A stretch of DNA of 64,000 bases from positions 434,001 through 498,000 of the forward strand of contig NZ_JAWQJT010000002.1 of assembly GCF_033441515.1 (NCBI RefSeq). Reading direction: 5' to 3'. A program made the translations under genes and the position numbers. Shown here in pieces: positions 23,032 through 33,726 of the stretch. The stretch comes from Amycolatopsis solani. Its GTDB lineage: Bacteria; Actinomycetota; Actinomycetes; Mycobacteriales; Pseudonocardiaceae. How positions within the stretch are numbered: position 1 is the stretch's first letter; every line of letters begins with the position of its first letter. The notes beneath the pieces are model-generated. The model was not told where the DNA came from. It did no database searches and worked only from the letters and a program-made list of their open reading frames with translations.

Positions 23032-23047
23032 TGGCCCGATTCTTGCT
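23032..23047 (+). promoter_or_regulatory. Sigma-54 -24/-12 promoter of rpoN
   Basis: TGGCCCGATTCTTGCT matches the sigma-54 consensus TGGCACG-N4-TTGCW at all but one base, with the invariant GG (23033-23034) and GC (23045-23046) separated by exactly 10 bases. Transcription would start near 23058, leaving a 32-nt leader that contains GGGGGAGG before the GTG start. The same element occurs upstream of two other transcription units here, so rpoN appears autoregulated. Short inverted repeats lie just upstream (22965-22986 and 22995-23015). Confidence 0.88.
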
Positions 23048-23089
23048 GAGGAGGCACGACACCCAAGTCGCCTGGTGGGGGAGGTTGAG

Positions 23090-24355
23090 GTGGTGTTTTC
23101 ACTCGAGCTCGGGATGGAGCCGCGGGCCGGTCTGGAGGTGTCGCCGGCGCTTGTGGTGTTCGGCGAGATGCTGATGCTCCCGTACGACGCGATGCGAGCC
23201 GCGATCGAAGACGAGCTGCTGGGCAACACCGCGCTCGAACGGCTGGAGAGCGAATGCCCGGTCTGCGCGGGCCGCTGGCGTTCGCGGTGCCCGGTGTGCG
23301 CGCCGCCCGGCTGCGGCCCCGGTCCCGGCCCGGTCGCTGCCCGGCCTGAGGCCGTCGACACCGAACCCGACACCCACGCCCTGCTGCGGGCCGTGCGGGC
23401 CGAGGTCGGGGCCGCCGAGGTGGCCGTGGCCGAATACCTGGTCGGCAGCCTGGACGAGCACGGGTTCCTCGACCGGTCCTGCGCGCAGGTCGCCACCGAG
23501 CTCGGCGCGCCGGAGGCGGTGGTGGCCCGGGTGGCCGAAGTGATCCGGCGGGTCGGGCCGCCCGGCGTCGGCGCCGGCGGGGTCGCCGAGTGCCTGCTGC
23601 GCCAGCTCGACGCGCTGGACTGCGATCCGGACGACGCGACCGTGCGCCTCGCGCGCGAGGTCGTCGCCGGTCACCTGCCCGCGCTGGCGAAAGGCCACTT
23701 CGCGGCGATCGCCGCGGCGTTGTCGGTGTCCCGTGACGAAGTCCGGCGCGTGCTCGAGTTCGTCAAGGCGCGCCTGCGGCCGTACCCCGCGTTCGACGGC
23801 AACGCCGCGCCCCGCGCCGGTTATGTGGTGCCCGACGTGCTCGTCCGGCCGCACGGGGAAATCTCCGGCGAGTTCGCGGTGACGCTGGTCGAGCCGGCGA
23901 TGAACCGCTTGCGGATCCGGCGGGACGGCGGGCAGCTGCCGCAGGCCCGGTCGTTCCTCGCGCTGCTGCGCGACCGCTGGGAGACACTGCGGCGGGTCGT
24001 CGAACTCGCCGTCGAGCGGCAGAAGGATTTCCTGCGCGACGGCCCGGCCGCGCTGCGGCCGCTGACCCGTGCCGAGGCCGCCGCCGAGCTCGGCCTGCAC
24101 GAGTCCACGGTGAGCCGCGCGGTCGCCGACAAGTTCGTGCTGCTGCCGGACCGGACGATCGTGCCGCTGGCGAAGTTCTTCGGCGTCGCCGGCGGCGTCG
24201 ACGAGGAACTGCGCCGCCTGCTGGCCGCGGCGGACGGCCCGGTGTCGGACCAGCGCCTGGCCGACCAGCTGTGCGCGGCCGGCTACCCGATCGCGCGCCG
24301 CACGGTGGCCAAGCACCGCGCCCGGCTCGGGTTCGCCTCCACCGCGCTGCGCTGA
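23090..24355 (+). CDS. rpoN: RNA polymerase sigma-54 factor (RpoN) with cysteine-rich insert
   Basis: This 421-residue protein aligns by eye along the length of sigma-54. Residues about 5-50 form a region I-like activator-interaction segment, though poor in Gln. A core-binding domain follows (about 85-250; LVGSLDEHGFLD, VGPPGVGAGGVAECLLRQL). Next come YVVPDVLVRPHG, the HTH segment ELGLHESTVSRAVADK, and near the C-terminus the RpoN box ARRTVAKHRA (usual ARRTVAKYRE). Region II is replaced by a cysteine-rich stretch with two CPVC motifs (about residues 58-75), which looks like a small zinc ribbon. Start GTG 23090 (or 23093) follows GGGGGAGG; in the longer upstream frame the -24/-12 promoter would lie inside the coding sequence. 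Sigma-54 directs ATP-dependent transcription from -24/-12 promoters and is generally considered absent from actinobacteria. Confidence 0.93.
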   Translation: MVFSLELGMEPRAGLEVSPALVVFGEMLMLPYDAMRAAIEDELLGNTALERLESECPVCAGRWRSRCPVCAPPGCGPGPGPVAARPEAVDTEPDTHALLRAVRAEVGAAEVAVAEYLVGSLDEHGFLDRSCAQVATELGAPEAVVARVAEVIRRVGPPGVGAGGVAECLLRQLDALDCDPDDATVRLAREVVAGHLPALAKGHFAAIAAALSVSRDEVRRVLEFVKARLRPYPAFDGNAAPRAGYVVPDVLVRPHGEISGEFAVTLVEPAMNRLRIRRDGGQLPQARSFLALLRDRWETLRRVVELAVERQKDFLRDGPAALRPLTRAEAAAELGLHESTVSRAVADKFVLLPDRTIVPLAKFFGVAGGVDEELRRLLAAADGPVSDQRLADQLCAAGYPIARRTVAKHRARLGFASTALR

Positions 24356-24357
24356 CC

Positions 24358-31588: not shown

Positions 31589-31599
31589 AGCACGTCCCT

Positions 31600-33669
31600 T
31601 CATCGAGACCGGTGGAGCGCGAGCGCCCGCGCGGCGTGCGCCCGGCGGCGGGCGAGCACCTCCTGGACACCCGGGTCGCCCACCGGCCGGTCCAGCACCG
31701 CGGCCGGTCGTTCGAACTTCAGCACCACGACGTCGGCCGCCTGGTCGGCGGTCACCCCTGGGGAGCGCAGCACCGCGTCGACGGCGGCGTAGTCCCCGCG
31801 CAGCTCGGTGACCAGGTAGTCCACCTGAGCGTCCAAATCGGACAGAATGGCCGAGCCTGGTACCCGGCCCCGGAAACCGTGCCGGAACAGCCCCGCCCGG
31901 CGGTTCGCGCTCGTCCACTGCGCGAGGCCGATGCCGGGCAGGCGCGGCCCGGTGCGCGCGGTCGTGCTCCGGTCCCGCACCTCGTCCGGGGTGAAGTCCC
32001 GTACCCGGCCGGTGAAGTCGGCCGACCGCATCGGGGTGTCTTCCCGGCTGCCTTCGATCCGGTCCGGCTGCACCCCCGACTCGGCGATCAGGTTGCCGAC
32101 CACGCCGGCCGCACCGTTGACCGGGTAGTGGTAGGTGTTCACCAGCAGGTCCATCACCCGCCGGATCCGGGCGTCCTGGCCGGTGGGGACGGTGCTCGCC
32201 GCCGGCGGCAGGTGCCGCCCGTCGCGGCGGCAGGTGATGACCGCGAAGAACCGGCTTTGCGGGCCGGTCAGGTCGAGCTTGCCGTCCGGGCGGGTGCGCA
32301 GCGACTTCTCGCCGACCGTCTGGCCGACCGTTTGGCCGACATTGCCGCCGATCACGCGGATCCGGCCCGGCCGCACGTCGGTCACGACGTCGCAGTGCGT
32401 GGCCCGGTAGCGCGCGTCCCCGATGTTGTCGTAGGTGGCGCCGCTGTCCTGCCGCGCCGCGCACACCAGATCGCCGACCCGCGGCACGGCCTCGGTGGCC
32501 CGGAACGCCCAGAACGGGTTCGCGGTGTCCCCGCGCAGCCGGTTGGCCCGCGCCGCCCGGATGTAGGACTGGTGCGCCGCCGAATAGCGGAACGCGGGCC
32601 CGGCCCCCGCCCGGCGCATCACGTACGAGACGAACACCGCGCTCCACGGATGCCCGGCCTGGTAGGCCTTGCTTCGCAGTTGCGCGTCGGACACCGTGAC
32701 GCCGACGCCCTCGCGGTAGTACTCGCGCAGGAGCGCCGAGGCCGCCGCGTCGGTCTCGGTCAGCGCGGCCCCACGGCCCGGCCGCCAGCGCCGGAACTGC
32801 TCGCGCGCCACTTTGGCGATCGCTTCGCACAGCGGCTGCGCCGGCCCGCCCGGCGAGGGCGCTTCGTGCTCCGGCCCACCGTGCCCGCCGGCCTCGGGCA
32901 GGTCCGTCCCGGGATCTGCGAGCAGCCGCCACCCGAAGATCCGCGGGATGTCGTCGTGCGCGACGCGCGTCCGCTCCACCCGGAAGGTCCGGCTCCCCGG
33001 CGCGAGGGCGGCGGCGACCCGCAGGCTGTTGGCGGCGGTCCCCTCACCCGGCCGGAACAGGACCCGCAGCGCCCCCGTCCCGGCGGCCTTCCGCTTCCGG
33101 GCCCAGGCGATCAGCGGCGCCGGATCGGTGTACAGCGCGTCGAACGCGTGCACCTCGTCCGGGTCGGCGTGTCGCAGGATGGCCATCAGGGCCGACCCGC
33201 CACCGGAGTGCGCGGTGAGGATGAGCTTGCCGCGCGTGGCGTGCACGCCGGTCGCGGCGGAGAACCGGCGCAGCGCGTCATCCACCAGCCGCGCGAGCGC
33301 GCCCGGCGCGGTCAGGGCGGGGAAGCTGTAGCGCCGTCCGCCGTGGAAGTGCCCGCGGGGGAGGACGAGCAGGGTGGGCGTGCGCCTGCCCCGCGTCGCC
33401 GGGTTCGCGGGATCCGACAAATCGAGTCCACTGCGGCGTTCCTTGTCGTCCGGCAGCGTCATCCGGGCCCCACGTGCGGAGAACCCGTGCAGGTGCACGA
33501 CAACGTCGACGGTGGCGGCCCGCGGCATCGACCCCCACCGCAGCACCAGGTCCGGCCCGGTACCCCGATGGCGCACCAGCTGCGGAAGCCGTTCCACGAC
33601 CAGCCGGCCGCCGTGCGTGCGGTCGTGCGGAGCGCGGTGTTCGAGCACCGCCGCGGGAGATGCCGTCAT
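31600..33669 (-). CDS. Multidomain hydrolase: alpha/beta-hydrolase-like + DUF2272 + phage tail-tip lysozyme
   Basis: The protein has 689 residues. Residues about 25-235 resemble an alpha/beta hydrolase with nucleophile motif AHSGGG in LILTAHSGGGSALMAIL. Residues about 270-460 match DUF2272 (AGHPWSAVFVSYVMRRAG, YSAAHQSYIRAAR, GDLVCAAR). Residues about 485-650 are a phage tail-tip lysozyme-like domain (LLVNTYHYPVNGAAGVVGNL, with a Glu in AESG, and GIGLAQWTSANRR). No signal peptide is visible, so it would need lysis or a dedicated device to reach peptidoglycan. ATG 33669 lies 31 nt after the predicted sigma-54 start site and follows AAAGGG. First gene of the leftward sigma-54 operon, coupled to the DUF1508-like gene by an ATGA overlap. 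Confidence 0.85.
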   Translation of the reverse strand: MTASPAAVLEHRAPHDRTHGGRLVVERLPQLVRHRGTGPDLVLRWGSMPRAATVDVVVHLHGFSARGARMTLPDDKERRSGLDLSDPANPATRGRRTPTLLVLPRGHFHGGRRYSFPALTAPGALARLVDDALRRFSAATGVHATRGKLILTAHSGGGSALMAILRHADPDEVHAFDALYTDPAPLIAWARKRKAAGTGALRVLFRPGEGTAANSLRVAAALAPGSRTFRVERTRVAHDDIPRIFGWRLLADPGTDLPEAGGHGGPEHEAPSPGGPAQPLCEAIAKVAREQFRRWRPGRGAALTETDAAASALLREYYREGVGVTVSDAQLRSKAYQAGHPWSAVFVSYVMRRAGAGPAFRYSAAHQSYIRAARANRLRGDTANPFWAFRATEAVPRVGDLVCAARQDSGATYDNIGDARYRATHCDVVTDVRPGRIRVIGGNVGQTVGQTVGEKSLRTRPDGKLDLTGPQSRFFAVITCRRDGRHLPPAASTVPTGQDARIRRVMDLLVNTYHYPVNGAAGVVGNLIAESGVQPDRIEGSREDTPMRSADFTGRVRDFTPDEVRDRSTTARTGPRLPGIGLAQWTSANRRAGLFRHGFRGRVPGSAILSDLDAQVDYLVTELRGDYAAVDAVLRSPGVTADQAADVVVLKFERPAAVLDRPVGDPGVQEVLARRRAHAARALALHRSR

Positions 33670-33710
33670 GGCCGACCCTTTCCGAAGCCCCGGGTGTCGG
33701 CCCCTGTGCC

Positions 33711-33726
33711 TGCAAGATGCGGGCCA
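33711..33726 (-). promoter_or_regulatory. Sigma-54 -24/-12 promoter of the leftward lysozyme/activator operon
   Basis: Read on the minus strand the element is TGGCCCGCATCTTGCA, with GG and GC ten bases apart. It differs from the other two copies only in the N4 spacer or final base. Predicted transcription begins near 33700, giving a 31-nt leader before ATG 33669, almost the same as the 32-nt rpoN leader. Confidence 0.87.

Follow-up and report, generated by a model that had tools for sequence, protein, structure and literature searches.

The rpoN question in actinomycetes

Does any actinomycete possess a working sigma-54 system? Actinobacteria were reported to be without sigma-54 in 2011 (PMC3162934). 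A 2025 survey (PMC12316311) records rpoN matches in 4 of 173 Actinomycetota, one being a misclassified Bacillota strain and the other three judged not bona fide from sequence similarity and Pfam scores; the phylum is there called "effectively" without a functional RpoN, whose promoters, it is suggested, become blurred where the genome is rich in GC. The question is raised again by a 64,000-nucleotide stretch of the Amycolatopsis solani genome (contig NZ_JAWQJT010000002.1, positions 434,001 to 498,000), hereafter the window, in which an rpoN homolog lies in a 10.8-kb gene block with a sigma-54 activator (enhancer-binding protein, EBP), a DUF2272 gene, an amidohydrolase gene and three genes that we term Y, M and U. 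A preliminary description of the window had claimed that three near-identical -24/-12 promoters define a compact sigma-54 regulon around this rpoN. On the sequence evidence set out below, we consider it probable (roughly 85%) that a transferable block here carries a self-contained regulon, with the three sites as its sigma-54 promoters.

Three -24/-12 sites and their statistics

The three sites of the form TGGCCCG-N4-TTGCW are located exactly where they had been described, all with the precise GG-N10-GC spacing, and the pattern matches the textbook sigma-54 promoter consensus TGGCACG-N4-TTGCW. Each precedes one unit of the block: rpoN itself, the Y-M-U-amidohydrolase run and the divergent DUF2272-EBP run. 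The predicted rpoN promoter, TGGCCCGATTCTTGCT, occupies positions 23032-23047 on the plus strand; with the transcription start (+1) set 12 nt past the C of the -12 GC, transcription would begin at 23058, giving a 32-nt leader to the GTG at 23090. The predicted promoter of the DUF2272-EBP unit, TGGCCCGCATCTTGCA, lies on the minus strand at 33711-33726, with a predicted +1 at 33700 and a 31-nt leader to the ATG at 33669. Both leaders contain a purine-rich Shine-Dalgarno (SD)-like stretch, in agreement with the earlier claim for two of the units. The predicted promoter of the middle unit, TGGCCCGGTTCTTGCA (24467-24482, plus strand), has its putative +1 at 24493; the nearest in-frame downstream start is the GTG at 24495, which corresponds to a leader of 2 nt.

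Markov models of the window, of orders 1 to 3, predict 0.021-0.024 exact matches in the 64 kb on both strands, and the probability of three or more is about 2e-6. When up to two mismatches are allowed, the window contains 26 matches versus 16.5 expected, of which exactly three are perfect; a one-mismatch site occurs at 6826-6841. The whole genome (10.28 Mb in 4 contigs) has 6 exact matches, three of them in the block, versus 3 for the pattern read backwards. Hence, there is no overall enrichment, and what stands out is the clustering of three sites within 10.7 kb. In the genome-wide scan that had been proposed as a check, run with exact matches, the count outside the cluster stays at the level of the control (3 versus 3).

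Conservation of the site with the module

To follow the sites beyond the window, loci were gathered by protein similarity, with the motif playing no part; four named loci were added, from Paractinoplanes (L018), Modestobacter (L026), Geodermatophilaceae (L027) and a Chloroflexi metagenome-assembled genome (MAG; L040). The genome counts that follow are lower bounds, since scoring in each genome covered the 22 or 4 top candidates of a first look. RpoN was recovered from at least 4 of 80 genomes of the genus, namely the genome under study, G003 and G057 at 93-100% identity and G080 at 35%, and at the class level gave at least 5 matches in 394 genomes, 2 of them weak. Matches to M numbered at least 28 in 346 genomes of the family (7 strong), at least 24 in 350 genomes of Micromonosporaceae (9 strong, with E below 1e-100) and at least 3 in 396 genomes at the phylum level (2 weak). 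Genes for RpoN, EBP, Y, M and U occur together in 23 actinobacterial loci and in the Chloroflexi MAG.

In the 400 nt running from the rpoN edge towards Y, the pattern TGGCMCG-N4-TTGCW is found with at most one mismatch in the sense orientation in 19 of the 23 actinobacterial loci and in the antisense orientation in none; simulated sequences gave a mean of 0.035 loci and never more than 1 in 200 rounds. The signal is specific to the sigma-54 spacing: at the same stringency N1, N2, N3, N5, N6 and N7 yield no locus and N0, N8 and N9 one each. With two mismatches allowed, the N4 site is seen in 22/23 loci, and in the Chloroflexi MAG an exact site precedes the first matched Y residue by about 270 nt. 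Recent common descent does not explain this footprint, because the module RpoNs fall into 18 clusters at 70% identity, with identities down to about 30%. In the manner of phylogenetic footprinting, these data support a conserved pairing of a sigma-54 factor with its promoter, and with it the interpretation of the sites as a sigma-54 regulon. The column profile of the sites is descriptive, the sites being chosen as best consensus matches, and carries no significance test.

In the 350 nt before rpoN, a sense site is present in 8/23 loci, including all 7 loci of the window subtype, with 1 antisense; in the 350 nt before the DUF2272 gene it is present in 6/7 (1 antisense), and the seventh locus, L235, has a one-mismatch site farther in. 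The same interval holds a site before M and before U in one locus of 23 each, and in none of the 15 loci before the amidohydrolase gene or of the 5 before the small gene adjoining EBP. In the Paractinoplanes locus, a one-mismatch site (L018:20799-20814) points away from the DUF2272 promoter, with no clear gene behind it.

The sigma factor and its activator

The rpoN gene (23090-24355, plus strand) codes for a 421-residue protein that is the sole match to the sigma-54 DNA-binding domain in the genome; its closest named relatives, at 94% identity, are from Amycolatopsis lexingtonensis and Amycolatopsis sp. cg9. The core-binding domain (PF04963) scores 114.7 bits against a cut-off of 22.9 and is present in all members of a set of 19 related proteins (A1), and the DNA-binding domain (PF04552) scores 98.3 bits against 22.8 and includes the HESTVSR helix and the RpoN box ARRTVAKHR. 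Region I is followed by a Cys4 motif (CPxC...CxxC; CPVC...CPVC in the window protein), which is invariant in A1 and whose pattern recurs in 17/23 loci; our guess is that it might bind zinc. The RpoN of another Chloroflexi MAG (L020) has a CPRC motif directly after region I, as in the actinobacterial family. The starts of two proteins, P0052 and P0094, are probably annotated too far upstream, because their N-termini read through a promoter-like TGGCCCG-N4-TTGCT, translated as LARxxL.

The EBP (30061-31341, minus strand, start uncertain) has an AAA+ domain (PF00158, 189 bits) with the motifs GESGTGK and GAFTGA. It is the only strong sigma-54-activator match in the genome, at 192 bits; the next scores 35, and seven other proteins lie above the Pfam activator cut-off at 24 to 35 bits. 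The G[AS]FTGA motif is conserved in all 23 module EBPs. The window protein has no C-terminal Fis-type helix-turn-helix (HTH) at E<=1, a domain that is usual but not universal in such activators, and its C-terminus ends as in the corresponding loci of G003 and G057 (L106 and L107). Among the 10 of 23 EBPs examined for it, HTH_8 is above the cut-off in L026 and L238, weaker in L018, L229, L109 and L110, and absent from L235 and L236. As the Amycolatopsis copies show no such domain, their EBP would need to work independently of an enhancer site. The part N-terminal to the AAA+ domain looks receiver-like by eye.

In the explanation that we favor, the block's own RpoN-type sigma factor would bring RNA polymerase to the three sites, and its own GAFTGA-bearing ATPase would open the complex, such that rpoN, the Y-M-U-amidohydrolase unit and the DUF2272-small gene-EBP unit would each start from one such promoter. 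Since all three units lie behind sites of this type, RpoN and EBP would each boost the expression of both in the window subtype, with a basal level supplied from another source. Such feedback is not general, because few loci of other subtypes have a site before rpoN and none of the 23 has one before EBP.

Weighing the regulon interpretation

Several observations count against this interpretation. At two mismatches the spacing is less exclusive, with N1 found in 10/23 loci, N0 in 9/23, N9 in 6 and the remaining spacings in 0 to 3; the site of L236 has three mismatches, and those of L026, L027 and L233 are reached at two. The site upstream of rpoN is absent from most loci of other subtypes, and EBP has none directly upstream, within 350 nt, in any of the 23. 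In most of eight whole module-bearing genomes, the number of exact motifs does not exceed that of the backward pattern (exact/backward 6/3, 8/9, 2/6, 0/4, 3/4, 12/13, 0/5 and 0/5). The RpoN scores 201.9 bits against the 277.35-bit cut-off of the NCBIfam equivalog TIGR02395, has no match to the Pfam AID (region I) domain PF00309 at E<=10, and in a direct profile search of its region I against E. coli-type PDB chains gives non-significant matches (i-E 430 to 1300). Finally, the RpoN-box pattern fails in 7/23 loci and the HTH pattern in 5/23.

The alternative that survives best, unlikely as we hold it, is a wider regulon, with genes beyond the block under the control of the factor as well. The genome was scanned for exact matches only, which leaves room for deviating promoters elsewhere that were not searched for, and in a Paractinoplanes genome (G844) an exact site (L263:3877-3892) lies 30 nt before a 105-residue open reading frame (ORF) that is STAS-like by eye. 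Against this, exact matches in that genome number 12 versus 13 backwards, and the three outside the block in the window's own genome do not exceed the control. Two of these three, C3:980690 and C4:252131, were rejected as regulon members since they lie inside ORFs. The third and best candidate, C1:271929, appears to be independent of rpoN. Across 30 aligned loci of the genus it is exact in all three rpoN-bearing genomes (perfect also in G003 and G057), but of the 27 rpoN-less genomes 10 likewise have it exactly and 25 have it within one mismatch. Because it is conserved in species that lack rpoN, it gives no support for a wider regulon and was rejected as a fourth member; judged by this distribution, the element is kept for a reason other than rpoN. 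The conserved stretch at this position (L001:1501-1560), TGGCYCGATTCTTGCA and the bases that follow, is shared by most Amycolatopsis whether or not rpoN is present, and lies between a gene for a GlxA/AraC-like regulator and a divergent oxidoreductase-like gene (both named by eye). The word "compact" of the preliminary description therefore fits, the exact matches beyond the block being one element retained without rpoN and two within ORFs.

Clearly less probable again is the view of this RpoN and its promoters as relics in decay, which have ceased to work in actinomycetes. Such a relic would agree with the score below the NCBIfam cut-off and the missing AID match, and it was on scores of this kind that actinobacterial RpoNs were deemed non-functional in the 2025 survey (PMC12316311). 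However, profile-profile comparison recognizes region I: the N-terminus of the 19 A1 proteins matches canonical region I with a probability of 94.4% (P 8.4e-8), and, when Chloroflexi are left out, with 90.4% (P 1.4e-6, 39 columns), versus 2.4% for the reversed alignment and no more than 16% for any of 100 column shuffles; the comparison used 40 of 74 non-module RpoNs, selected by a short N-terminal pattern. The direct PDB-chain search pairs the same region I residues, without significance, 11 of the 19 A1 members match PF00309 weakly (best 0.0022), and the AlphaFold model has two region I helices at low confidence. The profile comparison thus supports homology, and region I of the window RpoN is probably present in diverged form; by its scores the protein is a member of the sigma-54 superfamily outside the TIGR02395 equivalog. 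Moreover, 104 columns are invariant or alike across the 19 A1 proteins, at identities down to 61%, and a sigma factor, a GAFTGA activator and a promoter have been kept together in 23 loci whose RpoNs diverge to about 30% identity, a match that is not maintained in relics.

Still less plausible is that some other regulator or sigma factor accounts for the conservation of the motif. The C1:271929 element shows that this can happen, for there the motif is kept in genomes without rpoN. In the module, however, both spacing and strand are exactly those of sigma-54; the motif agrees with the textbook consensus, and adjoins genes for RpoN and its activator in 23/23 loci. Chance matching in a GC-rich genome, which the control-level count elsewhere might suggest, is negligible in the face of the cluster of three and is refuted by the footprint in 19/23 loci. 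We retain the sites as probable sigma-54 promoters of the block's own regulon.

Gene content and possible function of the block

The block as a whole spans approximately 22993-33782. The middle unit begins with Y (24495-26204, plus strand), a 569-residue Tyr/Gly/Glu-rich protein whose start is uncertain: either the GTG at 24495 or an internal ATG at 24927, which is preceded by an SD-like stretch. The window Y seems to be two Y units fused in one ORF, there being two separate Y genes in other modules. It is followed by M (26212-27558, plus strand), a protein of 448 residues with an HExxH motif (HEAGH), by U (27539-29332, plus strand), of about 600 residues with an uncertain start and conserved in 23/23 loci, and by the amidohydrolase (PF04909; 29316-30152, plus strand), matched in 15/23 loci. 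The DUF2272 gene (31600-33669, minus strand) specifies a 689-residue protein in which DUF2272 (PF10030) is joined to a phage-tail lysozyme domain (PF18013), and a small gene (31298-31573, minus strand) lies between it and EBP. Their spacing suggests that the genes within each run are co-transcribed.

Neither Pfam nor NCBIfam assigned Y, M or U to a named family. The AlphaFold model of M is poor (pLDDT 62), and M had no PDB match at E<=0.001. Distant homologs of M (about 30% identity) occur in other actinomycete loci, L241-L246, one of which (L243) also matches residues 1-258 of the DUF2272 protein; the 20 kb analyzed for each contain no match to rpoN or EBP, and these loci were excluded from the promoter counts, other weak M matches standing outside the locus set. 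In PHROGs, Y weakly matches a tape-measure family, and the lysozyme part of the DUF2272 protein better matches an endolysin family. Seven proteins tried against PADLOC gave no match other than that of the AAA+ core of EBP.

Peptidoglycan-directed domains are a recurrent theme, with DUF2272 and the phage-tail lysozyme here and NlpC/P60 and peptidoglycan-binding domains beside the Modestobacter module; an aminotransferase-like or M20-peptidase gene occurs in other modules. DUF2272 is also named in a paper on papain-like proteinases (PMC10318531). Our best guess, a tentative one, is that the output of the block has an envelope or surface role, which would agree with the role proposed for sigma-54 in the 2011 work (PMC3162934).

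Possible origin and transfer of the block

A tree of 100 RpoNs, built with a quick method and rooted at the midpoint, unites all 23 module proteins from actinobacteria in a single group (SH-aLRT 99) that two Chloroflexota proteins adjoin (97); the RpoN of L040 lies elsewhere on a long, unsure branch. Among 77 other RpoN loci, further module genes were found in L040 only. In G003 and G057, as in the genome under study, the block is present, flanked on one side by an SRPBCC-like gene and on the other by that of a BTAD-type regulator (both named by eye); in G051, which lacks rpoN, the same two flanks are 56 bases apart and the block is missing as a unit. A second genome without rpoN or block, G069, offers no clean empty site because other DNA fills the interval between the flanks. 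Beside the block, some 4.5 kb (33783-38285) have no match at the corresponding places of G003 and G057, reflecting either a gain here or a loss there. Among 215 plasmid records none had 80% of the query at one place, the best reaching about 33% identity, and 7 pattern matches among viral contigs included no relative.

Taken further, the block could be a closed, portable sigma-54 circuit, acquired by actinomycetes from a Chloroflexota-like source, in which a single promoter type governs the sigma factor, the output operons and an activator that has no DNA-binding domain, the whole making up a self-amplifying switch insulated from the host sigma factors; we would put even odds on this larger proposal.

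Relation to known sigma-54 systems

Among the titles and abstract starts listed in searches of open-licence papers, none describes this module. The footprint of a sigma-54 factor paired with its promoter argues against the 2025 conclusion that functional RpoN is effectively missing from Actinomycetota. Three exact predicted promoters against 0.02 expected in the window, and a pairing maintained across 18 RpoN clusters, make the question directly testable in the cultured genera Amycolatopsis, Lentzea and Paractinoplanes. The block would provide actinomycetes with an orthogonal transcription system of natural origin, and it ties three unnamed families, Y, M and U, to likely sigma-54 control.

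The actinobacterial RpoN-like genes listed in PMC12316311 are from Alloactinosynnema sp. L-07, Modestobacter marinus and Citricoccus sp., and Modestobacter is also the genus of module locus L026. Section 14 of that survey calls the genes non-functional and in its text mentions neither module nor promoters; they are set beside the block by description. RtcR is the best match of the EBP in PADLOC and the second-best in NCBIfam. The match is, however, restricted to the AAA+ part (259.9 bits versus an NCBIfam cut-off of 650), and the EBP had no CARF match in Pfam.

With canonical sigma-54 and its enhancer-binding proteins, the block shares the core-binding and DNA-binding domains, the HESTVSR helix, the RpoN box and, probably, homology in region I, as well as predicted -24/-12 promoters with GG-N10-GC and an AAA+ activator with GAFTGA. 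It differs in a region I beyond the reach of Pfam, in the Cys4 motif, in the score below the equivalog cut-off, and in bringing one sigma factor and one activator together on a small block. Also comparable are the one-activator sigma-54 systems of Chlamydia and of Helicobacter FlgR, which are chromosomal and ancestral and whose activator lacks a DNA-binding domain. The block resembles these in its few promoters, its single activator and the want of an HTH in the window EBP, but differs from them in its patchy distribution and in that promoters of one type precede both the sigma factor and the unit with the activator.

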